A stretch of DNA of 64,000 nucleotides from assembly GCA_903904755.1 (NCBI GenBank), contig CAIVDV010000058.1, positions 59,684-123,683 of the forward strand. The letters are read 5' to 3'. The DNA comes from an uncultured Acidobacteriaceae bacterium (GTDB taxonomy: Bacteria; Acidobacteriota; Terriglobia; Terriglobales; Acidobacteriaceae). Shown here one piece after another: positions 9,716 through 24,660 of the stretch (its first letter is position 1; each line of letters opens with the position of its first letter). The notes below the pieces were generated by a model. The model did no database searches. It worked only from the letters and a program-made list of their open reading frames with translations, and was not told the origin of the DNA. The position numbers and the translations under genes were made by a program.

Positions 9716-11173
9716 TTAGCCGAGCGGGATGAACTGCCCGAGCCAGCCGGGGAAAACTCCCAGCAGGACGACGGCGACGGCGATGGCAACCAGGGTGAGC
9801 AGTTCCAGCCAGTGCACCGGGATGGAGTCCTCGGTGGTTCCCTTCACGACGTAGACACGCTTGAGTACCTGCAGGTAGTAGTAGAGAGAGACGGCGCTCA
9901 TGCCGAGGGCAAGGATGACCATGCCCAGACTCCAGACCCCGGCCTGCGGGGCGCGCAGAACGGCGGCAAAGAGGTTGAACTTGGCCCAGAAGCCGACCAG
10001 CGGCGGAATGCCGGCGAGCGAGAGCAGGTAGACCAGCATGGTGCCGGCCAGGAGCGGGTTGCGCCGAGCGAGGCCGGAGAAGGACTCCAGGCGGTCGTTG
10101 CCGGTGGCGCGCTCCACGATGGCGACTGCGCCGAATGCTCCAACCGTGGTGAGCGAATAGGTGAGGGCGTAGTAGAGGACGGCACCTTGGCTGGCCGAGG
10201 TGTGCGCGGCGATGCCGAGCAGCATGTAGCCGGCGTGGGCAATGGCCGAGTAAGCCAGCAGCCGGCGGACGCTCGTCTGCACCAGTGCACCCAGGTTGCC
10301 GAGGATGATGGAGGCTCCGGCCATCCACAGCAGCAGGACGACCCAGGAAACGCCCTTCTGCTCATCGAGAGCCGGCACAACCGCGCCAGTAACGGAGACG
10401 AGAAGCGCAAAGCTCGCGACCTTGGAACCGGAGGCGATGAGTGCGGTGACCGGGGCCGGCGCGCCCTGGTAAGTGTCTGGTGCCCAAAGGTGGAAGGGAA
10501 CCGCGGCCACCTTGAAGCCGAGGCCCACTGCGACCAGAACCAGCGAAACAATCCAGAGCGGAGTGAGTGGGCCAGCCACGGCTGCCGCTGCGATTCCCGC
10601 CAGGCTGGTGGTGCCGGTCAAGCCATACAGGTAACTGAAGCCGAAGAGCAGGAACGCCGCCGACATGCCGCCGAAGAGGTAATACTTCAGCGCGGCCTCT
10701 GAGGATTCTGCCCGGTGTTTGTTGAACGCCGCCAGCACGTAGAGCGAGAGGCTCAACAGCTCCAGCGCGACAAAGATGACCAGCAGGTCGCGGGCGGCGG
10801 CTACCAGCATCATGCCGGTGGTGGCCAGCAGAACCAGAGCGACGAACTCACCGGGGTTGCGGGAGAACTCTTCGCGCATGGAGAGCAGCAGCACCAGGCC
10901 GGAGAGGATCAGAATGCCCGCCTGCGCGACGAAAACCGAGGGGTTGGAAACCAGCAGTTCGCCGAAGCTCGGCGCCAGCGGATGGCTGAGCAGCCAGCCC
11001 AGCGCCAGCAGGCATCCCATCACGCCGAAGGCCGCAGCAGCCACTGTGCGATAGGCAGCCGAACGGCGCCGCAGGATTCCAAGGTCGATGACGAGCACGA
11101 CCAGCGAGGCCACTTCCAGAATGGTTTCCGGAAAGGTGAGGTACAACAGGTTTGTCAAACTTGCGCCGTTCAT
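9716..11173 (-). CDS. nuoN: NADH-quinone oxidoreductase subunit N
   Basis: An antiporter-like membrane subunit of complex I, 485 residues and about 14 hydrophobic helices. It has the family signatures KVAAVPFHLWAPDTYQGAP, with the TM7 lysine, and a SVRRLLAYSAIAHAGYMLLG block. The N-terminal MNGASLTNLLYL start overlaps the end of the upstream nuoM by ATGA; a longer in-frame extension would run into that gene. It is the last gene of the nuo operon, before the terminator at 9664-9695. It should translocate protons at the distal part of the membrane arm. Confidence 0.95.
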   Translation of the reverse strand: MNGASLTNLLYLTFPETILEVASLVVLVIDLGILRRRSAAYRTVAAAAFGVMGCLLALGWLLSHPLAPSFGELLVSNPSVFVAQAGILILSGLVLLLSMREEFSRNPGEFVALVLLATTGMMLVAAARDLLVIFVALELLSLSLYVLAAFNKHRAESSEAALKYYLFGGMSAAFLLFGFSYLYGLTGTTSLAGIAAAAVAGPLTPLWIVSLVLVAVGLGFKVAAVPFHLWAPDTYQGAPAPVTALIASGSKVASFALLVSVTGAVVPALDEQKGVSWVVLLLWMAGASIILGNLGALVQTSVRRLLAYSAIAHAGYMLLGIAAHTSASQGAVLYYALTYSLTTVGAFGAVAIVERATGNDRLESFSGLARRNPLLAGTMLVYLLSLAGIPPLVGFWAKFNLFAAVLRAPQAGVWSLGMVILALGMSAVSLYYYLQVLKRVYVVKGTTEDSIPVHWLELLTLVAIAVAVVLLGVFPGWLGQFIPLG

Positions 11174-12681
11174 CCCCGGCCTCCCGCAACCAGAATGTGT
11201 GGCAGCGCCTGCACCGCCGGGGCAATCACGTCCAGCAGCAGGCGCGGCATCAGGCCAACCAGCAGGCTGGTTCCGGTCAGCAGCAGCACCCCGGCCCACT
11301 CTGCCCAGCTGATGGGCGCGTAGGGTGCGTGATCTTCCACCGGCTCCGTCACTGGCGTGTCATTGAGAAATACCCGTTGCAGCGCGCGCCAGGTGTAAGC
11401 CACGCCCACCACAATGCCGATGCCCGCCACCGCGGCGAACCACGGGAAAGCCTGCCAGGCTCCCATCAGCACCTGCATCTCAGCCACAAACCCCGAAAAG
11501 CCCGGCAGCCCCATGGAGGCCATGCCGGCAATGGCGAAGACGACAGCAGCAAACAGCATCGTCTTGCCCAGCTTCAGCTTGCCCAGAATTGCCAGGTCGC
11601 GGGTGTGGGTGCGCTCGTAAACAATGCAGCCAACCACGGCGAAGAGCAGCCCGGCGAGGACACCGTGCGAGAACATCTGCAGCACTGCGCCGTCGATGCC
11701 GACCTGGGTCAGGGTCATGAGGCCGAGAAGAACCAGGCCCATGTGGCTGACGCTGGAGTAGCCAATGACGAACTTGAAATCGTTCTGCACCAGCGCCACC
11801 GCCGCGCCATAGACGATGCCGATGACGGCCAACAGGGCGAAGACGGTCCGCCAGGAGCCGATGCCGAGGAACGACCATCCCCAGGGATCCATGCCGTGCG
11901 GGAAGACCGTCATGGCAACGCGAAGGCAGCCGTATGCTCCCAGCTTCATGACCACGCCGGCCAGCAGCATGGAGGCGGCGGTGGGGGCGGCGACGTGTCC
12001 GGTGGGCGCCCAGGTGTGGAAGGGCCACATGCCAGCCAGAATCGCAAAGCCGGTAAAGACCAGCGGGAAGGCCCAAAGCTGGAAGCTGACCGGATACTGG
12101 TAGGCGGCCAGCGTGTGCAGGTCCATGGAGTGCGCGCCGCTCATGACATAGGCGGCAAGCAGGCCGATAAGCACCATCGCCGAACCGAGGAAGGAGTAAA
12201 GCGCCAGCTTCATTGCGCCGTACTCACGTCGGGTGGAGCCCCAGATGGCGATGAGGAAGTACTTGGGGACGATGGCGATTTCGTAGAAGACGAACAGCAC
12301 GAAGAGGTCAACCGCGAGGAAGACACCGTACACGCCGCCAATCAGCGCAAGGAAGAAGGCGAAGAACTCGCTGGTGCGCTCTTTGACAGTCCAGGAGAAG
12401 AGGATGCCGGCGACTGCGGCGAGCCCGGTCAGCACCACCAGCACGCGGCTGATGCCGTCAGCGGCCAGCGTGTAGTGGATGCCCATGGCTGGAATCCAGG
12501 GGATATCGGCGATGAGGACAGGCCCGGAGGTGCCGGCCTGGATGAATCCGGTGAGGCCGACGGCCAGCCCGGCCACGGCGATGGCCAGCGCGAAGACCCG
12601 CGCGAACCCCGCCGCCACCCTGGGCAGCAACGCCAGAACCAACGCACCGGCAAACGATAGGTAGATGGTGTAAGCGAGCAT
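11170..12681 (-). CDS. nuoM: NADH-quinone oxidoreductase subunit M, second copy
   Basis: A 503-residue antiporter-like subunit and the second of two adjacent nuoM genes. It keeps the TM5 Glu (FYEIAIVP, Glu134), the TM8 Lys (MKLGAYG, Lys246) and the TM12 Glu (FVAEM, Glu401). Where NuoM normally has the TM7 lysine (AVKxP), this copy reads GFAILAGMWPFHTW, with Leu215 at that position. The start is the ATG at 12681, which overlaps the preceding stop as TAATG and has GGTGGAG upstream. Its 3' end overlaps nuoN by ATGA. The missing lysine raises the question of whether it pumps in the usual way. Confidence 0.93.
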   Translation of the reverse strand: MLAYTIYLSFAGALVLALLPRVAAGFARVFALAIAVAGLAVGLTGFIQAGTSGPVLIADIPWIPAMGIHYTLAADGISRVLVVLTGLAAVAGILFSWTVKERTSEFFAFFLALIGGVYGVFLAVDLFVLFVFYEIAIVPKYFLIAIWGSTRREYGAMKLALYSFLGSAMVLIGLLAAYVMSGAHSMDLHTLAAYQYPVSFQLWAFPLVFTGFAILAGMWPFHTWAPTGHVAAPTAASMLLAGVVMKLGAYGCLRVAMTVFPHGMDPWGWSFLGIGSWRTVFALLAVIGIVYGAAVALVQNDFKFVIGYSSVSHMGLVLLGLMTLTQVGIDGAVLQMFSHGVLAGLLFAVVGCIVYERTHTRDLAILGKLKLGKTMLFAAVVFAIAGMASMGLPGFSGFVAEMQVLMGAWQAFPWFAAVAGIGIVVGVAYTWRALQRVFLNDTPVTEPVEDHAPYAPISWAEWAGVLLLTGTSLLVGLMPRLLLDVIAPAVQALPHILVAGGRG

Positions 12682-14191
12682 TAGAATCTCCACCCCGCCA
12701 GCCAGTGAACCACTGTCGGATTCACCACGCTCAAAATCAGCTGGGGTCCAAGGCCAAGCATCAGCATCAGAGTCAGAATCGGTGCCAGGCCAAAGCGCTC
12801 AGCGCGGTTCATATCCGGAAAGGCGGCCCATTTTTCTGCCACCGGCCCGGCAAAGACTTTCTGGATGACCGTAAGGATGACGGCTGCGGTAATCAGCAGG
12901 CCGAGCACCGCGACGGTCGCCGCCTGCCAGGCAAGCGGGAAGATGCCGCGGAAGATGAGGAACTCGCTGACGAAGCCGTTCAGGCCCGGCAGACCGAGAG
13001 ACGAGAAGAGGGCGATGCCCATCATGCCGGCCAGAATCGGAGCCGGCTTGCGGAGACCGCCAAAACCGTCGATGGCGAGTGAGCCGCCGGAACGCTCCTG
13101 GATGAGAGCGAGGAACCAGAAGATGGCCGCAGCAGTGATGCCGTGGTTGAACATCTGCAGGACAACGCCGTCGAGAGCAGCCGCGCGGCTCAACGTTACC
13201 GCCGGGTCACCGGTTGCAGGGATGCAGACGGCAAAAATGGCCAGCAGGCAGTAGCCCAGGTGGTTGACCGAGGAGTAGGCAAAGACGCGTTTGAGGTCTT
13301 TCTGCACCACCGCAGCCCACGCGCCGGCAACGACTGTCAGGACGGCGAGGGTAAGCAGCACGCCACGCATCTGGGCCATCTGATGGCCGAAGATGGGCAA
13401 TGCAAGCCGCAGAATGCCGTAAACGCCCATCTTGGACATGGCGCCGGTGAGCAACATCGTGATGGCCGTCGGTGCCTCAGCGTAGGTATTCGGCAGCCAG
13501 GTGTGGAAGGGCATGAGCGGTACCTTCACCGCAAAGCCAAGCAGCACGCCCACCGCCAGCCACAGCGCCACCGGGCCGAGGTGCGCGGTAATCATGGGCT
13601 CCAGGGTGCCGAGGGAGGCCAACTGCGCCAGCGCCTCAAAGTCCATGGTGCCGGTGGAGACAAAAAGCGCCAGGAAGGCCAGCAGCAGCCCAACAGACCC
13701 GACCATGGTGTACACAAAAAACTGGGTTGCAGCCGGGCCGCGATTGGCCCCGCCCCACAATTTGATGAGGAAGAAGGCCGGAATCAGGCTCAGCTCCCAG
13801 TACAGGAACCAGTGGAAGAAGTTGAGCGCCGTGAAGGTGCCCATCAGGCCGGACTCAAGCAATAGCACCAGGGCGAAGTAAAGCCCGGGATTGGTGGTCA
13901 CCTTGCGCGAGGCAGCCACGGCCATCAGGGTGACCAGTGCCGAAAGAATCAGCATCAGCGCGCCCAGGCCGTCGACGCCCAAGTGATACTCGATGCCCAG
14001 GGTGGGGACCCATGGGCTGCGCTCCACCAGGGACATCTTCCCGTCGAAGTCCAGCAGGAACCAGATCCGCATGGCCAGGGCCAGACTGGCGAGCGAGAAG
14101 ACTGAGGCAGTGCGGATGGCACGCTTGCCGGACAGCAGCGCCACCAGCGCACCAATGGCAGGCAGAACAGTAATGGTTGTGAGCAGATTGG

Positions 14192-14195
<4 letters not shown>
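12681..14195 (-). CDS. nuoM: NADH-quinone oxidoreductase subunit M, first copy
   Basis: A 504-residue antiporter-like subunit that keeps every residue expected of a pumping NuoM: Glu134 (YWELSLIP), Lys224 (FAVKVPLMPFHTWLP), Lys255 (SKMGVYG) and Glu411 (FVSEF). The start is ATG at 14195, overlapping the nuoL stop by ATGA; an in-frame extension upstream lies inside nuoL. It is clearly diverged from the second copy, so this is not a recent tandem duplication. Together with nuoL, nuoN and the second nuoM it gives four antiporter-like subunits in one operon. Confidence 0.95.
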
Positions 14196-16336
<2,141 letters not shown>

Positions 16337-16343
16337 CACTCGT

Positions 16344-16655
16344 TCATCCCTTCATCCGCGTCATGGCGTCGAGGTCGGTGGTTTTGGCATGCCGGTGATA
16401 GGCAATCACCAGACCAAGACCGACCGCCGCCTCAGCAGCGGCGACGGCAATGGAGAAAATGGCGAACATCATGCCGGTGAGCGCCTCAGGATGGGGCCCG
16501 AAACGCCAGAAGGCGATGAGATTCAGGTTGGCGGCGTTCAGCATGAGTTCAATGCCGATGAGCACCAGAATGGCAACGCGGCGGGTGAGCGCAATGCCCA
16601 GGCCGAGCGCGAAGATCATCGCTGCCAGCAGCAGGTATGCGGTAAGTGGCGTCAT
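16344..16655 (-). CDS. nuoK: NADH-quinone oxidoreductase subunit K
   Basis: A 103-residue, three-helix membrane subunit of complex I. It has the family-typical ILVLIGIELMLNAANLN segment and the FSIAVAAAEAAVGLGLVIAY segment, which together hold the two conserved membrane glutamates. It starts with ATG at 16655, overlapping the nuoJ stop by ATGA, and ends 7 bases before nuoL. It links the proton path from NuoH/J to the antiporter subunits. Confidence 0.96.
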   Translation of the reverse strand: MTPLTAYLLLAAMIFALGLGIALTRRVAILVLIGIELMLNAANLNLIAFWRFGPHPEALTGMMFAIFSIAVAAAEAAVGLGLVIAYHRHAKTTDLDAMTRMKG

Positions 16656-17170
16656 TCGGCACCGCCGTTCTTCTTGAATTCCGGCATGGCCACGATGACC
16701 GCGCCAATCAGCGCGACGGTGAGCAGCACCGCGGTAATTTCCAGCGGCAGCACGTAGTCATACATCAGCGACTGGCCGATAGCCAGCACGGTGGGCACGG
16801 CAATGGCCGGGGCCGCAACACGGGGAATGCTGGTGAGAACGGCCCAGCCCAGCAGCGCGAAGACCCCGGCCGCCAGCAGCAGGCCGAGAACCCACTTTTG
16901 CGCGTAGACATGGATGAGCGTGGTTCCGACGCCGCGGGTGAGCAAGATAGCGAAGACCACCAGAATGGCTACCGCGCCGATGTAGACCAGAATCTGCGCG
17001 AAGCCGGCAAACTGCGCATCAAGCTGCAGATAGATGAGCGCCAGGCCGCCAAAGGCCACCGTGAGGCTGAGCGCGCAGTGCACCAGGTTGCGCATGGTGG
17101 CCGCAGCCAGCGCCCCAATTAACGTTATCATTGCCGCCAGAAAAAAAGGCAGGCCAACTCCGAAAATCAT
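16652..17170 (-). CDS. nuoJ: NADH-quinone oxidoreductase subunit J
   Basis: A 172-residue membrane subunit with five predicted helices. The family motif MRNLVHCALSL leads into ALIYLQLDAQFAGFAQILVYIGAVAIL, where the TM3 pi-bulge tyrosine region lies. It begins 36 bases after nuoH and overlaps nuoK by ATGA. Confidence 0.95.
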   Translation of the reverse strand: MIFGVGLPFFLAAMITLIGALAAATMRNLVHCALSLTVAFGGLALIYLQLDAQFAGFAQILVYIGAVAILVVFAILLTRGVGTTLIHVYAQKWVLGLLLAAGVFALLGWAVLTSIPRVAAPAIAVPTVLAIGQSLMYDYVLPLEITAVLLTVALIGAVIVAMPEFKKNGGAE

Positions 17171-17206
17171 CGCGCCCCCTCGTCATACCGGCTGGTTCGC
17201 CTAAAG

Positions 17207-18400
17207 TTATTCCGCATATCGATAGCTCCGTGGCCCAAGGCCCTGCCGCCGCATCAGGATGCGGCCAAGCAGCACATAGGCACAGCCCAAAATCCCAGCC
17301 GAAACCACCCAGCGCAGCCAGGTGTCGGGCATAAATCGCCAGGCTCCGGCCACCACCAGGTTCAGCAGGGACATGGGCAAAACAAACTTCCATGCAAAGT
17401 TCATCAACTGGTCCTGGCGCAGGCGCGGCATGGTTCCGCGCAGCCAGATAAAGAAGAGGATGCCCGCCGCCAGCTTGACAAAGAACCAGGCCCACGAGGG
17501 GACAAAGCCCAGCACCGAAAGCGGCGCGCCCCATCCGCCCAGAAAGAGCGTGATGGCAAAACCGGCGATCGAGAGCATACCCAGATACTCGCCCAGGAAG
17601 AAGAGCGCGAACTTGAAGCCCGAGTACTCCGTGAAGTATCCGGCGACCAGTTCCGATTCGCCTTCCGGCAGGTCGAAGGGAGAGCGGTTGGTCTCAGCCA
17701 GCGCCGCAATCACAAACAGGATGAAGCCCAGGAAGCCCCACGGCGTAAAAACATACCAGTGCGGGAAGATGCCGGTGAAGCCGGACTGCGCTTCCACAAT
17801 CTTCACGGTGGACAGCGACCCGGTCATCATCACGGCGACAACGGCCGAAAGCAGCAGCGGCACTTCGTAGCTGATCATCTGGGCCACGGCTCGCATTGCG
17901 CCCAGCAGCGAATACTTGTTGCGGCTCGACCAGCCGGCCATGAAGATGGAGAGTTCAGTGGATGCGCCAATGGCGAAGAAGAAGAAGATGCCGCAGTCCA
18001 TATTCAGCAGCACCATGTTCCGCCCGACAGGCAGCACGGCGTAGCCCAGGAATGTGACAACTACCAGGATGACCGGGGCCAGAAAGTGCACCAAGGCATC
18101 CGCGCTCAGCGGCACAATATCTTCCTTCGTCAGCGACTTGATGGCGTCGGCAATTGGCTGCAGAAGCCCGAAGGGACCAACGCGGTTGGGGCCGAGACGA
18201 TTCTGGATGCGGCCAAGCGCCTTGCGCTCAAGCCACACGGAGAGCGCGAAGCAGAGCGGGAAGGTAAGCACAATGGCCACCACCGCCAGCGCCGCCATCA
18301 CAATCGGCTGCAGCCACACCGGGAAATACCCAGCCACAAGATGCTGCAGGGTGACAAAAATCTGGTCGGCCTGTTCAACGATTCCGGAAGGAACGATCAT
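17207..18400 (-). CDS. nuoH: NADH-quinone oxidoreductase subunit H
   Basis: The quinone-site membrane subunit, 397 residues and about eight helices. It has the strongly conserved ERKALGRIQNRLGPNRVGP loop, then DAIKSLTKED, and the ETNRSPFDLPEGESELVAGY loop that borders the quinone chamber. It starts by ATGA overlap with nuoI. In the E. coli order nuoH precedes nuoI; here nuoI comes first. Confidence 0.97.
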   Translation of the reverse strand: MIVPSGIVEQADQIFVTLQHLVAGYFPVWLQPIVMAALAVVAIVLTFPLCFALSVWLERKALGRIQNRLGPNRVGPFGLLQPIADAIKSLTKEDIVPLSADALVHFLAPVILVVVTFLGYAVLPVGRNMVLLNMDCGIFFFFAIGASTELSIFMAGWSSRNKYSLLGAMRAVAQMISYEVPLLLSAVVAVMMTGSLSTVKIVEAQSGFTGIFPHWYVFTPWGFLGFILFVIAALAETNRSPFDLPEGESELVAGYFTEYSGFKFALFFLGEYLGMLSIAGFAITLFLGGWGAPLSVLGFVPSWAWFFVKLAAGILFFIWLRGTMPRLRQDQLMNFAWKFVLPMSLLNLVVAGAWRFMPDTWLRWVVSAGILGCAYVLLGRILMRRQGLGPRSYRYAE

Positions 18401-19047
18401 GCTCCCTGCTCCTTTCCGCCCTCGGCAGGCGCCGCCGACTTGGCAGCCGCAGCGGCTGCTGCCTCGGCTGCCGCTTTTGCCTTGGCCGCTGCCGCCTCTG
18501 CCGCAGCCTTGGCCTTGGCTTCTGCCGCGGCCCTGTCTGCTGCCAGGCGAGCATCCACTTCCGCGGCCTCTATGGGATGCACGCTGTGGTAATACTCGTT
18601 CGACTTCGACAGCTCGGCGCGGTCGTGAATCAACCCACCGAAGCGGTCCGTCGTAGACAGCTCAAACTCGTTGTCCATCTTGATTGCGTCAAAGGGGCAA
18701 ACCTCGACGCAGATCTGGCAGCTCATGCAGACAGACAGATCGATGTCAAAGCGGGTCGGGTAGAACTGCGGCTTGCCAACCGCGTCCACCTTCTTGTCCG
18801 CGCTCTTGGTGATGTAAATGCACTTGGGCGGGCACTCCTTTTCGCAGATCTGGCAGCTTACGCAACGCAGGCCGGCAAAAGCATCTTCCCCGTCGTAAAC
18901 CAGAAACGGAAACGTGCGCGCGTTCTCGACCTGCGGAACCCGCTCTTCCGGGTATTGCACGGTTGTCATCCGCTCCTTGGAGACATAGCTGCCGAGGAAA
19001 TTCCTCCCGGTCTCAGCCAGTCCTTTCAGCAATCCTTCGCCTAGCAT
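18397..19047 (-). CDS. nuoI: NADH-quinone oxidoreductase subunit I with Ala/Lys-rich tail
   Basis: The TYKY-type subunit that carries iron-sulfur clusters N6a and N6b. Two ferredoxin motifs are present, CVSCQICEKECP and CMSCQICVEVCP, giving eight cluster cysteines. The 216-residue product is longer than usual because of a low-complexity tail of roughly 50 residues, rich in Ala, Lys and Glu (repeats like AKAKAAAEAAAA). I chose the ATG at 19047 (MLGEGLLKGL), 25 bases after nuoD; the frame is open further upstream. It ends in an ATGA overlap with nuoH. Confidence 0.95.
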   Translation of the reverse strand: MLGEGLLKGLAETGRNFLGSYVSKERMTTVQYPEERVPQVENARTFPFLVYDGEDAFAGLRCVSCQICEKECPPKCIYITKSADKKVDAVGKPQFYPTRFDIDLSVCMSCQICVEVCPFDAIKMDNEFELSTTDRFGGLIHDRAELSKSNEYYHSVHPIEAAEVDARLAADRAAAEAKAKAAAEAAAAKAKAAAEAAAAAAAKSAAPAEGGKEQGA

Positions 19048-19072
19048 CGGGCCTCCGTCATCGCCATAGCCA

Positions 19073-20230
19073 TTAGCGGTCCACCTCGCCCAGCACAATG
19101 TCCACGCTGCCAAAAATCAGCACCACATCGGCCACGTTGTGACCCAGGCACATATCTTCCAAAACTGTCAGGTTGATCAGCGAGGGGGGCCGCACACGGT
19201 ACCGGTACGGCGACGCTCCGCCATCTGAAATCAGGTAGAAGCCCAGTTCGCCCTTGGGCGCTTCAATGCGGCCGTAGGCCTCGCCGGGCTTGGGCTTGAA
19301 GATGCGCCCCGGTGCCTTGGGATCCTTGATGGGGCCGCCCGGAATATCCCTGAGCGCCTGTTCCAGAATCTTGATCGACTCGCGCGCTTCCAGAATGCGA
19401 ACCATGTAGCGGTCGTAGATGTCGCCGTGGTCGCCCAGGGGAACACGGAAGCTGAAGCGGTCGTAGATGCCGTAGTGGTCAACCTTGCGCAGGTCATAGT
19501 TCACGCCTGCCGCGCGCAGCATCGGCCCGGTAATGCCGGCGTTAATGGCCAGATCTGCGGGCAGAATTCCCATGCCCTGGGTGCGGGCCATCAGGATTTC
19601 GTTACCGCCGAGGAGCGCCTCAAACTCATCCAGGAACTTTGGCGCGCCGGCGACAAACTTCTTAGCGGACTCAATCCACTCGGGCGAAACATCCACGCGG
19701 CATCCGCCAAAGCGCATGTAGTTGCCCATCATGCGTGCGCCGGTCAGCCACTCAAAGAGGTCCAGAATCTTCTCGCGTTCGCGGAAGGCGTACATCAGGG
19801 GCGTGCCGCTGGCACCCATTTCCTGGATAAGGAAGCCGATGGCGCTGGCATGGTTCTGGATTCGGGTGAGCTCGGCCAGAATGACGCGGATGTACTCGGC
19901 GCGCTCCGGAACGAGAGTGCCGGTGAGCTTTTCGACGGCGAGGGCGTAGGCCCAGTTGTTGGTGAGCGGGCAAATGTAGTCGAGCCGGTCGGTAAAGGGC
20001 ATCATCCCCAGGTAGCTGGTGCTTTCGCCAATCTTCTCGTGGTTGCGGTGCAGGTAGCCAAAGACCGGCTTCAGCTTGATGACCCGCTCGCCGTCCAGTT
20101 CCAAATCCATTCGGAAGACGCCGTGCGTCGAGGGATGGTGCGGCCCCATGGCCACTTCCAGCAGCGAACCGTCGCCATCAGGCTCAATTACAGGGGGCAG
20201 AAAGCTCTTGAACTCGGCTGATGTTGTCAT
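19073..20230 (-). CDS. nuoD: NADH-quinone oxidoreductase subunit D
   Basis: The 49-kDa-type subunit, 385 residues, forming the quinone pocket with NuoB and NuoH. Signatures include [13 protein letters not shown] with the quinone-side His, [25 protein letters not shown], and the C-terminal LGEVDR. It starts at ATG 20230 in an ATGA overlap with nuoC and is a separate gene, not fused to nuoC. No nuoE, nuoF or nuoG follows, as would be expected in the classical 14-gene order. Confidence 0.97.
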
Positions 20231-20865
20231 TCCGCCACCCCCGCTGCCTGGGCCTGGGCCCGCTTCAGCACTTCGTCGTGTGCGGTCGGCTCCCATTCGT
20301 AATCGTCCGGATCCACGTAATCGCGACGCATCGGATGGTCTTCAAACTCATCCCACATCAGCAGGCGCCGCAGGTCGTGGTGGCCTTCAAAAACAATTCC
20401 AAAGAGGTCGAAAACCTCGCGCTCCTGAAAGTCGGCCGAGCGCCACACCGGGGTCAGCGACGGCACCTTCACGTCGTCGGTCCGGTTGCCGGTGCGCTGG
20501 CGCAGCACAATCGGGGTCTGCGCGCCTTCCTTGGAGTTCCGCATGGAGAAGAGGTGATACACCGCTTCCAGACAACCCGGCTCGCGACGCTTGACCGTCT
20601 CTTCCACTTCGGTCTCGACGCCTGCTACCAGCTTGGTGACCTTCACCTTCTCGGCAATTTCCTTGCCCGGCCAGTCCACGCCGGTCACGTTGGAACAATA
20701 GTCCAGCCCTTCGACCTCGCGCAGGTAAACCGCAACCTGCAGCGCATCGGCCGGCGCCACCACGATGGAGTGCTGGGCGCTGACGCTGGGGTTCAGCAGC
20801 AGCTCAACCCGCGCATCCGGTAACGCTGCTTGAATGGCAACCAGAAGCTCTTCGGCAGTTTTCAT
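20227..20865 (-). CDS. nuoC: NADH-quinone oxidoreductase subunit C
   Basis: The 30-kDa-type subunit, 212 residues. It has the Complex1_30kDa block: [20 protein letters not shown], then [18 protein letters not shown] and [16 protein letters not shown]. The start MKTAEELL overlaps the nuoB stop by ATGA. It acts in the peripheral arm next to NuoB and NuoD. Confidence 0.96.
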
Positions 20866-21509
20866 CCCTCGGCTCCTGTCTTCGGCGCGGCTTCCGCCAC
20901 GGGCGGGGCGGGCAGCGGCCACACCAACTTGTTTGCTGAGGGCTCCAGGTCGTGCGCACCCTGCACCGGCACAGGAAACTCTGCCATGCCCTCTTCATCG
21001 AGGTGACGGGGGCGGCCTTCGCCAGTCAGCGGCTGCGCGGCAATCCGCTTCTGCAGTTCCATAAACCCGTGCAGCAGCGCTTCCGGCCGCGGCGGGCATC
21101 CGGGAATGTGCACATCCACAGGAATGTAGCGGTCGATTCCCTTCAATACGTTGTAGCCCTGCTTGAAGGGGCCGCCGGAAATGGCACAGGCTCCCATGGC
21201 AATCACGTAGCGGGGCTCGGCCATCTGGTTGTAGAGGCGCACGACCTGCGGGGCCATCTTCTTGGTGACGGTTCCGCTGATAATCATCAGGTCCGCCTGG
21301 CGCGGCGAGGGGCGAAAGACCTCGGCGCCGAAGCGGGCCAGATCGTAGCGAGCCATGGTGGTCGCAATCATCTCAATGGCGCAACAGGCAAGCCCGAACT
21401 GCATCGGCCACACCGAGTTCTTGCGGCCCCAGTTGTAGAGCTCGTTGAAGGAGGTGACGAAAACCCCCTGCTTGCCCAGCTCGATATTCAATTTCGGCTC
21501 AACAGCCAT
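20862..21509 (-). CDS. nuoB: NADH-quinone oxidoreductase subunit B
   Basis: The subunit that holds the terminal iron-sulfur cluster N2, which reduces quinone. The 215-residue product has the adjacent cysteines in [10 protein letters not shown], then MGACAISGG and PGCPPRPE, so all four N2 ligands are present. The C-terminal extension after about residue 165 is proline- and alanine-rich and variable in this family. It lies 45 bases after nuoA, the largest gap inside the operon. Confidence 0.97.
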
Positions 21510-21554
21510 CCCAAACTCCCCGCACCTTCCGGTAAACGTCTACCATGCCGAAGG

Positions 21555-21926
21555 CTAGCTCCAGGTCAGCACGCCCTTGGCCCAGGCCCAAACCAGGCCT
21601 TCCACCAGCAGCAGCACAAAAATAAGCATCGACAGGCATGCCCCAGCCGTAAGCCCCGTAAAGGCCACCGCAAAAGGCAGCAGAAATATCGCTTCCACGT
21701 CAAAAATCAGAAAGATGATCGCGTACAGGTAGTACGCCGACCGAAATTGCACCCAGGCATCCCCTCTCGACTCCAGGCCGCACTCATAGATGGCATTCTT
21801 GATGCGGTTCGGCTTGGGGGGCGACACGAGATGGGCCCACAGCCAGGCCAGCCCAAGAGGGGCCAAACCGAAACCAAGAGCTGCAAGGAAAAGAACCAGC
21901 AGTGGCAGATAGCTCGTCGAGACCAT
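21555..21926 (-). CDS. nuoA: NADH-quinone oxidoreductase subunit A
   Basis: A 123-residue membrane subunit with three helices. The conserved loop reads YECGLESRGDAWVQFRSAYYLYAIIF, followed by FDVEAIFLLPFA. I chose the ATG at 21926 (MVSTSYLPLL) because GGGA lies 8 bases upstream; an in-frame ATG at 21962 has no ribosome site. It is the first gene of the operon, and its promoter must lie in the divergent spacer shared with the multihaem cytochrome gene. Confidence 0.93.
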   Translation of the reverse strand: MVSTSYLPLLVLFLAALGFGLAPLGLAWLWAHLVSPPKPNRIKNAIYECGLESRGDAWVQFRSAYYLYAIIFLIFDVEAIFLLPFAVAFTGLTAGACLSMLIFVLLLVEGLVWAWAKGVLTWS

Positions 21927-22239
21927 AGGATTCCCGAAAATGACTTCCTTCTTGAAGTACATCAATAAAGTATCAGGCCCGGGCCTTCTCTGGACACTCC
22001 AGAAAACTGCCCCATCACAATCCGGGACGCCCCTGATTCGGTGCCCCAAAACCCACCCTGTTCATATGCCGAACACTGCCGGCAGCCCACTCCAACCTAG
22101 GGTGGAAGACACGTGTCATGGGCCGCTTGCTACTCTCCACATGGAAGCAGTCACTGGATGTGGTCTGCGTCACACCACAGGTGTATCCGACGCCTTCCCG
22201 TCCCGCATTCTGGTGATATGGTCCATTCCTGGGGGTTTC
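21927..22239. promoter_or_regulatory. Divergent nuo / multihaem-cytochrome control region rich in palindromes
   Basis: This 313-base spacer has no convincing gene. It holds several perfect or near-perfect palindromes: AGGCCCGGGCCT (21975-21986), TCTGGA-cac-TCCAGA (21989-22003), CTGCCGGCAG (22076-22085), a 16-bp one-mismatch element TCCAaCCTAGGgTGGA (22091-22106), GACACGTGTC (22108-22117) and ACACC-aca-GGTGT (22172-22184). Any could be a regulator site for either direction. I could not assign clear -35/-10 boxes. Confidence 0.5.
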
Positions 22240-24660
22240 ATGCTGTCCTTTTTCCGCCGCCGGACGAGCCGGCACCGCTTTGCCGCCCTGCCGCCTGCGC
22301 TTCGAATTGCCGCTTTGTCAGCTCCTGTCGCGCTTGCCGCAATGGCCCTGCCGCTCTTCCCGGGCATGGCGGGCCCGGTGCTGGCATTCCAGCAGCCGGC
22401 ACCCGCCCAGCCGGCAGCCACAACGCAACAGCCCTCCACCTCGACAACGGAAGATGGGACTTTCGGCGCACCCGCAGGCGCGGCTCCCGCAGTTGCCCCC
22501 TGGCAGGAGGTTGCCCCCACCGAGTTCCAGCAGCACATTTCCGGCAAGTACAACTACGCCTTTGGCAAGGAGACCCCCTTTCTGCCCTCCAACGCCACCG
22601 CGGCAAACGGGCAGTTTTTGAACCCGAAAAATGTGCTGACCGCCGAGTACTGCGGCCACTGCCACAAGGAGAGCTATCACCAGTGGCGCGAATCGGCCCA
22701 CTCCAACTCCTTCCGCGCTCCCTGGTACCTCAAGAACGTGAACATGCTCATCGACGAGAAAGGCGTACAGTTCAGCCGCCACTGCGAAGGCTGCCACAAC
22801 CCCGTCGCGCTTCTCTCCGGCGGACTTTCCCAGGGGATGCCGAAGAAGCGGCCGTTTGCCGATGAAGGCGTGACCTGCGAGACCTGCCACGCCATCCAGT
22901 CCACCACCACGCTCGGAACCGGCAGCTACGTAATGGGCATCCCCGCCGTCATGGTCGATGAAAACGACAAGCCCATCACCACTCCGGTTTCCGACTCTGA
23001 GATCCGCGCCCACCTCGACCGCCATTCCAAAGCCGTGATGCGCCCCCTGCTCCAGACTCCAGAGTTCTGCGCCGCCTGCCACAAGGCGGCCATCCCTCGC
23101 ACGCTGGACGACTACAAGTGGCTCCGCGCTTTTACCCCCTACGACGAGTGGCAGCAGTCAAGCTGGAGCAAGCAGTCTCCCCTGCCCTTCTATCGCAAGG
23201 AGGCCGCCTCCACCTGCCAAACCTGCCACATGCCCAAGGAAGATCTGCCGGAGACGAGTTCGGACTACGGCGCCAAGGACAACAAGCTGGCCAGCCATCG
23301 CTGGGTGGGCGCGAACACGCTGATTCCCACCTACTTCAAGTATCCCGACCAGGCGGCGAAGGTGGTGGAGTTCCTGCGCAAGCAGGTCTTCAACGTGGAT
23401 ATCTTCGCGCTGGAAAAGGAATCTGCCGGCGCAACTCCGGCAGACCCGGTGCTGGTTGCCCCGCTGGGCCTGACCAGCTTCTCCCTGATGCCAGGGGAAG
23501 CCGTCACGGCGGATATGGTCATCCAGAACAAAGGCATCGGCCACTCGCACGTGCCGGAACTGCGCGACTTTTACGAGTCGTGGGTCAACTTCACTGTCAA
23601 GGACTCGACCGGGAAGGTCATCACCGAGTCCGGCTTCCTGAAGCCGGACGGCAACCTCGACCCCGCAGCCCACTCCTTTACCAACCGCATCATCAATAAA
23701 GAGGGCGAATTCAACGACCTCCACCAGATTTGGCATAACCGCGTGCTGGCCTACAACAATGCCCTGCAGTCGGGACGCAGCCAGGTGGTGCGCTACCGTT
23801 TCCGCATTCCCAAGGACGCCACCGGAGCAATTACGCTGACCGCCACCGTGAAATACCGCCGCTTTGACCAGCACTTTATCGACTACGCAATGAACCAGAA
23901 GCACTATCCCGAGCCGGTCGTCGAGATGGCCTCGCAATCGCGAACCCTCACCCTGGGCGAAAACTCGCCGGTTGAGCCGGGCGCCGATGAGAACAAGGAG
24001 TGGATGCGCTGGAACAACTTCGGCGTTGCCCTCCTGGACGCGCAGCAGTATGCCGCCAGCGTGCACGCTTTTGAGCGGGTTGCGGCCCTGCGGCCAGATT
24101 ACGCCGATGCCTTCACCAATATGGCGGTCGTCGAGATTCTCTGGGAAAAGTACAACGACGCCCGGCCCAACCTGGCCAAGGCGCTTGACCTCCTGCCCGG
24201 CGACCCGCGCGCCCTCTACTACCGCGCCCTGGTCGAACGCAACGGCGGGCAGGTTGCGGAGGCCATCCACGACCTGGAAGCGGTCCTGGTCAAATTCCCG
24301 CGCTCCCGCGATGCGCTGCGCGAGTTGGGCTTCAGCTACTACCAGCAGCATGATTACCCCCACGCCCGCGACGCCTACGAGCGGCTGCAGGGGGTTGACC
24401 CGGACGACCTGGCCGCCCACTACAACCTCGCCATCCTGTACAGGCGACTGGGGCAGAAGGACAAGGCAACCTACGAGGCCGGCCGTTTTGCCGACGAAAA
24501 AGATGACCCGACCGCGTCGGTCTTCGCGCTCAAGTTCCTCCGCAACAACCCTGAGGTCACCAGCGAGTCCGTCAACTGGCACGCCCACGACCTCACCGGC
24601 GACCCGGTGAAGAAGTCGGAGAAGATTGAGTACACGTATATCCCGGGGGGCGGGGCGTAG
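22240..24660 (+). CDS. Multihaem cytochrome c with C-terminal TPR repeats
   Basis: An exported 806-residue protein. After a basic start and hydrophobic signal, residues about 100-340 carry five CxxCH haem motifs at 138 (CGHCH), 182 (CEGCH), 213 (CETCH), 277 (CAACH) and 326 (CQTCH), in the spacing of the cytochrome c554 family. The middle is beta-rich. From about residue 590 there are four or five TPR-like helical pairs (for example EWMRWNNFGVALLDAQQY). GGGGG lies about 5 bases before the ATG at 22240; longer in-frame starts lie in the spacer. It should act in periplasmic electron transfer. Its redox partner is unknown, but divergence from nuo suggests a respiratory role. Confidence 0.88.
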   Translation: MLSFFRRRTSRHRFAALPPALRIAALSAPVALAAMALPLFPGMAGPVLAFQQPAPAQPAATTQQPSTSTTEDGTFGAPAGAAPAVAPWQEVAPTEFQQHISGKYNYAFGKETPFLPSNATAANGQFLNPKNVLTAEYCGHCHKESYHQWRESAHSNSFRAPWYLKNVNMLIDEKGVQFSRHCEGCHNPVALLSGGLSQGMPKKRPFADEGVTCETCHAIQSTTTLGTGSYVMGIPAVMVDENDKPITTPVSDSEIRAHLDRHSKAVMRPLLQTPEFCAACHKAAIPRTLDDYKWLRAFTPYDEWQQSSWSKQSPLPFYRKEAASTCQTCHMPKEDLPETSSDYGAKDNKLASHRWVGANTLIPTYFKYPDQAAKVVEFLRKQVFNVDIFALEKESAGATPADPVLVAPLGLTSFSLMPGEAVTADMVIQNKGIGHSHVPELRDFYESWVNFTVKDSTGKVITESGFLKPDGNLDPAAHSFTNRIINKEGEFNDLHQIWHNRVLAYNNALQSGRSQVVRYRFRIPKDATGAITLTATVKYRRFDQHFIDYAMNQKHYPEPVVEMASQSRTLTLGENSPVEPGADENKEWMRWNNFGVALLDAQQYAASVHAFERVAALRPDYADAFTNMAVVEILWEKYNDARPNLAKALDLLPGDPRALYYRALVERNGGQVAEAIHDLEAVLVKFPRSRDALRELGFSYYQQHDYPHARDAYERLQGVDPDDLAAHYNLAILYRRLGQKDKATYEAGRFADEKDDPTASVFALKFLRNNPEVTSESVNWHAHDLTGDPVKKSEKIEYTYIPGGGA

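Follow-up and report, generated by a model that had tools for sequence, protein, structure and literature searches.

Complex I variants with a second NuoM, known as '2M complex I', were reportedly first described by Chadwick et al. (2018, ISME J). Here we analyse an operon of this kind in an uncultured Acidobacteriaceae bacterium (assembly GCA_903904755.1, contig CAIVDV010000058.1, positions 59,684 to 123,683 of the forward strand; this whole stretch of 64,000 nucleotides is called the window), with a focus on the site residues of its second NuoM protein, M2. According to passages of PMC9040806 and PMC6606698, the second NuoM of 2M complex I comes with a NuoL that is lengthened by about 26 residues in its lateral helix, HL, and passages of PMC6606698, PMC9040806, PMC7117926 and PMC11636273 propose an extra proton for such complexes. 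The class is on record, again in passages of the respective papers, for Acidobacterium capsulatum (PMC11636273), Chloroflexi (PMC7117926) and Nitrospira (PMC6606698).

The operon in the window has the same nuoL-nuoM-nuoM-nuoN order and the same HL insertion of about 26 residues as 2M complex I in general. Since the class has already been published, Acidobacterium capsulatum included, we regard the operon as a further member of it, and by gene order and insertion this assignment is firm. A previous sequence-only reading of the window had claimed four antiporter-like genes (nuoL, two nuoM, nuoN) in a single operon with overlapping joins at most junctions, and a fit to a class of complex I with four antiporter-like subunits. 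Open frames and family models agree on the four genes, ATGA or TAATG overlaps occur at seven of the 11 junctions, and gene order together with the 76-residue HL stretch of NuoL bears out the fit. Compared with individual members of the class, the window shows likenesses and differences. The 'clade 3' operon of N. moscoviensis is described in passages of PMC6606698 as being without nuoE, nuoF and nuoH and as having an enlarged nuoG, whereas the window operon has nuoH and no nuoG and therefore falls outside clade 3. Acidobacterium capsulatum, too, has a nuoA-N operon and, apart from it, a further complex I whose nuoM is duplicated; it is transcribed there (passages of PMC11636273, which contain no sequence analysis of the two NuoM). 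The Chloroflexi complex likewise shows nuoLM1M2N with M1 and M2 in separate clades, but its nuoBCDI lie apart from the operon, unlike in the window (passages of PMC7117926). The four antiporter-like genes of the window are as follows:

14192..16336, minus strand: nuoL, the distal antiporter-like subunit (PRK06590, 623 bits, above cut-off)
12681..14195, minus strand: nuoM1 (TIGR01972, 427 bits)
11170..12681, minus strand: nuoM2, of the second NuoM class without the TM7 lysine (TIGR01972, 419 bits; class by tree)
9716..11173, minus strand: nuoN (TIGR01770, 369 bits, above cut-off; stop at 9716)

Both M1 and M2 pass the curated cut-off of the NCBIfam model NDH_I_M (TIGR01972), which is 263.8 bits. 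Among the 25 models listed for each, the best Mrp-type models reach 167 bits (M1) and 156 bits (M2), far under their cut-offs, and hydrogenase-4 models at most 142 bits for either protein, below cut-off; the concern that one NuoM might come from an MRP or hydrogenase unit, which the sequence-only reading had raised against itself, thus does not hold by family models.

A review presents the lysine of transmembrane helix 7 (LysTM7) as paired with a glutamate in helix 5 (GluTM5) in each antiporter-like subunit (passages of PMC10212512), and a structure paper on Mrp gives LysTMH7 of MrpA and MrpD as absolutely conserved and essential, with the break in TMH7 touching that in TMH8 (passages of PMC7419157). 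We set site columns on M1: the Glu of TM5, the residue six after it (the TM5 site), the Lys of TM7, the TM8 residue six before the TM8 Lys, that Lys itself, and the Glu of TM12. Both members of the LysTM7/GluTM5 pair are present in L, M1 and N, but M2 combines Glu134 with Leu215. M1 has Glu134, Lys224 (TM7), Lys255 (TM8) and Glu411 (TM12), NuoN has Glu138, Lys221 and Lys398, and NuoL keeps Glu in TM5, Lys in TM7, His in TM8 and Lys in TM12; the site residues of M2 are Glu134, Lys140, Leu215, Leu240, Lys246 and Glu401. Three codons of M2 matter most for what follows:

12262..12264, minus strand: codon of Lys140, the Lys-type lysine, on TM5 at six positions past Glu134 (site alignment)
12037..12039, minus strand: codon of Leu215, in the LysTM7 column of L, M1 and N (site alignment and model)
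11962..11964, minus strand: codon of Leu240 in TM8, a histidine in the sister type (site alignment)

In the predicted structure of M2 (mean predicted local distance difference test score, pLDDT, 91.9), a TM7 half-helix spans residues 198-215 and is followed by a break at 216-220, Leu215 being the last residue before that break. As LysTM7 is described at the TM7 break (passages of PMC10212512), Leu215 stands at the place of LysTM7. The best solved matches of the model are NuoM-type chains, none above 35% identity among the 50 matches listed. The NuoM of E. coli (3RKO, 32% identity to the M2 model) and of Paracoccus (8qby, 35%) have the same fold, with a TM-score of 0.91-0.92, and, unlike M2, a lysine in the Leu215 column.

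The loss of LysTM7 was first considered as a peculiarity of the window, which is ruled out since it is common to the class of M2. M1 and canonical NuoM have Ala or Met, and rarely Val or Ser, at the TM5 site; at TM7 they have Lys, and at TM8 Leu apart from a single Val. In Acidobacteriaceae and Verrucomicrobiota, M2 has Lys, Leu (once Met) and Leu at these three places, while the M2 of Chloroflexota (13 of 14 loci) and most members of the class that are the single M of their cluster have Met, Leu or Ile, and His; the Chloroflexota proteins thus differ from the window's M2 in carrying a TM8 histidine instead of a TM5 lysine. The same holds for the single-M complexes of Phocaeicola massiliensis (L167) and Salegentibacter sediminis (L168), whose NuoM belongs to M2's class and is likewise without LysTM7, but which differ from the window in having the TM8 His in place of the TM5 Lys, one NuoM in the cluster and an HL spacing of 51. 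When a His-type NuoM was searched against the PDB, the best matches were 8qby_M and 6hum_D. Five Acidobacteriota loci with a single-M His-type NuoM (L054, L055, L058, L063 and L082) have an inserted loop, about 20 residues long, that follows the WGS motif and precedes EYAAMK/EYGAMK.

Across 535 aligned NuoM, of which 360 are added homologues and many rows are near copies, the lysine at the TM5 site is the only one of the three bases in 388, the TM7 lysine in 82 and the TM8 histidine in 63, with none in two, so that exactly one base is present in 533 of 535. The searches that supplied the 360 homologues fixed no residue at the TM5 site; each began from a Lys-type query. Around the three sites, GluTM5 is kept in 95-100%, and the Lys of TM8 and the Glu of TM12 in about 100%, of both types of the M2 class. 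In the alignment, the TM8 His site and the TM8 histidine of NuoL are at most one residue apart; for the latter, passages of PMC13358369 propose a role as a switch. That a NuoM carries one base to the exclusion of the other two is firm as a sequence fact; what the pattern may mean is that the base, or charge, has been relocated within one proton channel of NuoM. A literature search for a shifted NuoM lysine, which did not extend to Chadwick et al. 2018, found no report of it.

We therefore turn to what M2 might do. On present evidence it is likely that the operon encodes a four-pump arm, L-M1-M2-N, strapped by the longer HL of NuoL, and that M2 pumps with its TM5 lysine replacing LysTM7. The complex would be a complex I of the eleven-subunit type to which a further NuoM is added, with all four antiporter-like subunits in gene order and the lateral helix of NuoL probably strapping the whole arm. 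Electrons would enter through NuoI/B/C/D, and quinone reduction would drive one proton per antiporter-like subunit and one via the E-channel, about five per two electrons. Within M2, Lys140 would pair with Glu134 and take over the work of LysTM7 as the coupling point to the neighbouring subunit: the base, shifted to a nearby position within the same chamber, would charge and discharge beside GluTM5 and pass the signal on. Because M2 is without the TM7 lysine, the extra working pump is a prediction only. M2 could instead be a passive spacer that has lost LysTM7, leaving four subunits of which three pump. In favour of this, LysTM7 is described as paired with GluTM5 in every antiporter-like subunit (passages of PMC10212512) and as essential in the Mrp homologues (passages of PMC7419157), and M2 has Leu there. 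We consider this unlikely, given that the M2 class keeps the Glu of TM5 (95-100%) and the Lys of TM8 and Glu of TM12 (about 100%), that 451 of the 453 sequences without LysTM7 have a base at one of the two other sites, and that in many loci the cluster has no NuoM other than one of this class. Still less credit can be given to the idea that the altered sites reflect transport of another cation, Na+ or K+. Antiporter-like subunits are indeed homologous to the Mrp cation/proton antiporters (passages of PMC7419157), but the Glu in TM12 is typical of NuoM and no positive sign of such transport was seen, though a cation-site signature was not searched for; we rate this as very improbable.

The two types of the M2 class have replaced one another repeatedly. 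In trees built without the three site columns, the Lys type is split between three clades: the M2 of Acidobacteriaceae and Verrucomicrobiota, a Leptolinea/Bellilinea group within the M2 of Chloroflexota, and a group of single-M proteins from Spirochaetota/Clostridia; a single clade of all Lys types is rejected (p-AU, approximately unbiased test, 2e-70). At least three changes between lysine and histidine are needed on the tree, with both sites altering at each, which yields three independent pairs in which the TM5 Lys is present where the TM8 His is absent, and the reverse. Event counts do not separate gain from loss. Whether the entire class, which supplies four-pump complexes with their second M and many three-pump ones with their sole M, pumps without a TM7 lysine, with its charge at the TM8 His or the TM5 Lys and switched at least three times, is a proposal for which we find the balance even.

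The sequence-only reading had called the two nuoM genes clearly diverged and suggested a phylogeny as a check. In our NuoM tree (41 rows, IQ-TREE quick search, LG+C20), the two do fall into distinct classes: ten M1 form one clade (Shimodaira-Hasegawa-like approximate likelihood ratio test, SH-aLRT, 99), and ten M2 join ten single-M proteins (SH-aLRT 95), in keeping with the many other loci in which a member of the M2 class is the sole NuoM of the cluster. Monophyly of all M2 was not recovered in the tree, nor was it rejected when enforced as a constraint (p-AU 0.217). A tandem duplication of nuoM within the operon as the source of M2 might be suspected from the adjacency of the two genes and their common match to TIGR01972, but a tree forced to hold M1 and M2 as one clade is 148 log units worse (p-AU 3.7e-54). 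Because this joint clade is rejected, M1 and M2 are not tandem duplicates; the scenario is refuted under the model used and scarcely credible. In FastTree phylogenies rooted at the midpoint, the four-pump NuoL groups with canonical NuoL, and NuoD and NuoH group with some single-M His-type complexes; the placement of NuoN was not resolved by them. We infer a hybrid origin, in which a distal pair, L with M1, would have joined a proximal part carrying the M2 class, with no copying of nuoM in place. What appears to go beyond the known 2M class, on sequence grounds, is that M1 and M2 are of different NuoM classes and that the M2 class has its base off TM7.

A search of the phylum (297 genomes, 31 of them from the window's own family) found, among the matches listed, M2 proteins of at least 63% identity in eight genomes including that of the window, all within the 31; the next matches listed, from other families, had an E value of 1e-99 and 46-47% identity. 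The closest named homologues of M2 are from Acidicapsa and Terracidiphilus. A wider pattern scan of genome contigs gave the best 80 of 581 relatives (loci L099-L178), 50 of which hold two NuoM; with seven more this makes 57 two-NuoM loci beside the window (seven from the own family and, going by record titles, 12 acidobacterial, 14 chloroflexotal, 21 verrucomicrobial, and three labelled Proteobacteria, Klebsiella or bacterium). As M1 followed by M2 recurs in all 57, a chance arrangement is no candidate. Judged by gene ends, L-M1-M2-N is whole in 47 of them, and the other ten show the same order without L or N in the stretch; an irregular order in L129 proved to be an artefact of open-frame starts and is regular by gene ends. 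No E, F or G matches were found in the stretches examined of any of the 57, many of which were stopped by contig ends. Two further loci, L125 and L131, have a Lys-type M2 followed by nuoN, and nuoL and M1 were not found within 10 kb upstream. The NuoM of L110 (titled Proteobacteria) and L114 (titled Klebsiella pneumoniae) group with verrucomicrobial ones in a tree, and these assemblies are possibly mislabelled.

The strap that would hold such an arm together was measured as the spacing between two motifs of NuoL:

14300..14527, minus strand: 76-residue HL stretch of NuoL, running from YFDELYEA up to but not including QAGRAPGY (24-26 residues above the short-HL NuoL compared)

The canonical NuoL of the same genome (contig C19) has 52 residues between these motifs. 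Each of the 52 four-pump NuoL measured, from 51 loci plus the window, has a spacing of 76-80; the 32 single-M loci of the M2 class that could be measured all have 50-51. In the predicted structure of NuoL (mean pLDDT 87.6), HL is one helix, 602-677, and the structural matches by VIA-align are NuoL/ND5-type chains only, among the 50 listed. This distribution bears on the possibility that M1 and M2 are used as alternatives, so that a given complex takes up one of the two and has three antiporter-like subunits. Cyanobacterial complexes with exchangeable subunits are known, and M1 and M2 do belong to distinct classes. However, the genes of M1, M2 and N overlap, and the longer strap is seen in 52 of 52 four-pump NuoL measured, while all 32 single-M relatives of the M2 class lack it, so that we hold alternative use of the two to be improbable.

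Several points weigh against a four-pump arm with a relocated base. Two sequences, P0337 and P0339, have none of the three bases; in both, the TM5 site is a Glu, and a Lys follows closely on a TM7 histidine. One of the two patterns behind loci L099-L178 had Lys or Met ([KM]) at the TM5 site, which biases the set at that site. The exchange rests on three events, for which a sign test cannot reach 0.05, and the Lys-type grouping was named once the first tree was known and then tested. In the NuoM tree, M1 stands beside canonical NuoM with a support of 56 only, leaving its branching unsettled. At the far end of HL the predicted NuoL structure is of low confidence, with blocks of pLDDT 43-57. Finally, among 23 canonical single-M acidobacterial loci, HL is 51-52 in nine and 76-78 in 14, and these 14 rule out the HL insertion as proof of a fourth pump, for which it is not sufficient; in our sample the insertion always accompanies two NuoM and also occurs where one NuoM is found.

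A comparable insertion with one nuoM has been described in Manganitrophaceae (passages of PMC9040806). Acidobacterial clusters with HL 76-78 and a single nuoM in the stretch examined include L061, L065, L067, L069, L074, L075, L076, L078 and L080, that of L076 comprising J-K-L-M only. At L066, L071, L072, L077 and L081, nuoL-nuoM pairs with the insertion were seen, and no membrane-arm complex I neighbours were found in the stretch; L081 has E, F and G matches about 4 kb downstream of the pair. Five genomes (G010, G277, G041, G289 and G216) have an HL-insertion cluster with one M in the stretch, and G125 has a short-HL cluster; further antiporter-family genes were matched, by position only, in all six.

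Open frames and family models make the minus strand from 21926 to 9716 a single operon in the order nuoABCDIHJKL-M1-M2-N. Besides the four antiporter-like genes it contains:

21555..21926, minus strand: nuoA (Pfam Oxidored_q4; ATG at 21926)
20862..21509, minus strand: nuoB (Pfam Oxidored_q6)
20227..20865, minus strand: nuoC (Pfam Complex1_30kDa; ATGA junction with nuoB; below curated NCBIfam cut-off)
19073..20230, minus strand: nuoD (Pfam Complex1_49kDa; NCBIfam NuoD models)
18397..19047, minus strand: nuoI, diverged (TIGR01971, 77 bits against a cut-off of 113; both CxxCxxCxxxCP motifs; Ala-rich tail)
17207..18400, minus strand: nuoH (PRK06076.1-2, 343 bits)
16652..17170, minus strand: nuoJ (NCBIfam NuoJ models, best 96 bits, below their cut-offs)
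16344..16655, minus strand: nuoK (PRK05715.1-2, 95 bits)

The overlaps, read from the sequence, are at B/C, C/D, I/H, J/K, L/M1, M1/M2 and M2/N, and short gaps separate A/B, D/I, H/J and K/L. The 11-subunit core of complex I (A, B, C, D, H, I, J, K, L, M, N) is complete; NuoI, NuoC and NuoJ score under curated NCBIfam cut-offs, and NuoI retains both iron-sulfur motifs. No nuoE, nuoF or nuoG is present in the window operon, which is thus not of the 14-subunit NADH type; the sequence-only reading makes no mention of this absence. Divergent from the adjoining nuoA, a plus-strand frame (21940-24660) encodes a cytochrome c554 domain and C-terminal tetratricopeptide (TPR) repeats.

As the operon is without nuoE, F and G, electrons may reach NuoI/B/C/D from ferredoxin or from a borrowed or shared NADH module, and we are undecided between these two donors. 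Ferredoxin has been proposed as the electron donor for the Nitrospira 2M complex (passages of PMC6606698), and POR-type ferredoxin enzymes have matches at four places in the window's genome. A second complex I of this genome (G000, 83 contigs) lies on contig C19, where BLAST with the window set found A, C, D, H, J, K, L, M and N; frames there are interpreted as nuoE, F and G, that of F also by Pfam, and the whole genome has two NuoF matches. For the nuoB and nuoI families, this canonical operon on C19 gave no full-gene match, and matches are on other contigs; the loci for the canonical operon, nuoB and nuoI are on contigs C19, C47 and C53 (L009, L087 and L091). A partial antiporter-family match lies on contig C73. 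NuoF was matched in 12 of the 13 four-pump genomes searched, with none in G301, a genome of unknown completeness.

There is still dispute over how quinone chemistry is coupled to proton movement along the membrane arm of complex I, and LysTM7 has a fixed role in models of every pumping subunit. Natural subunits with the charge elsewhere make that role testable, and four-pump arms would allow a test of whether an arm with more antiporter-like subunits moves proportionally more protons in each cycle. If our reading is true, nature has already run a charge-relocation experiment on complex I, and four-pump arms would mix an ordinary NuoM with a relocated one.

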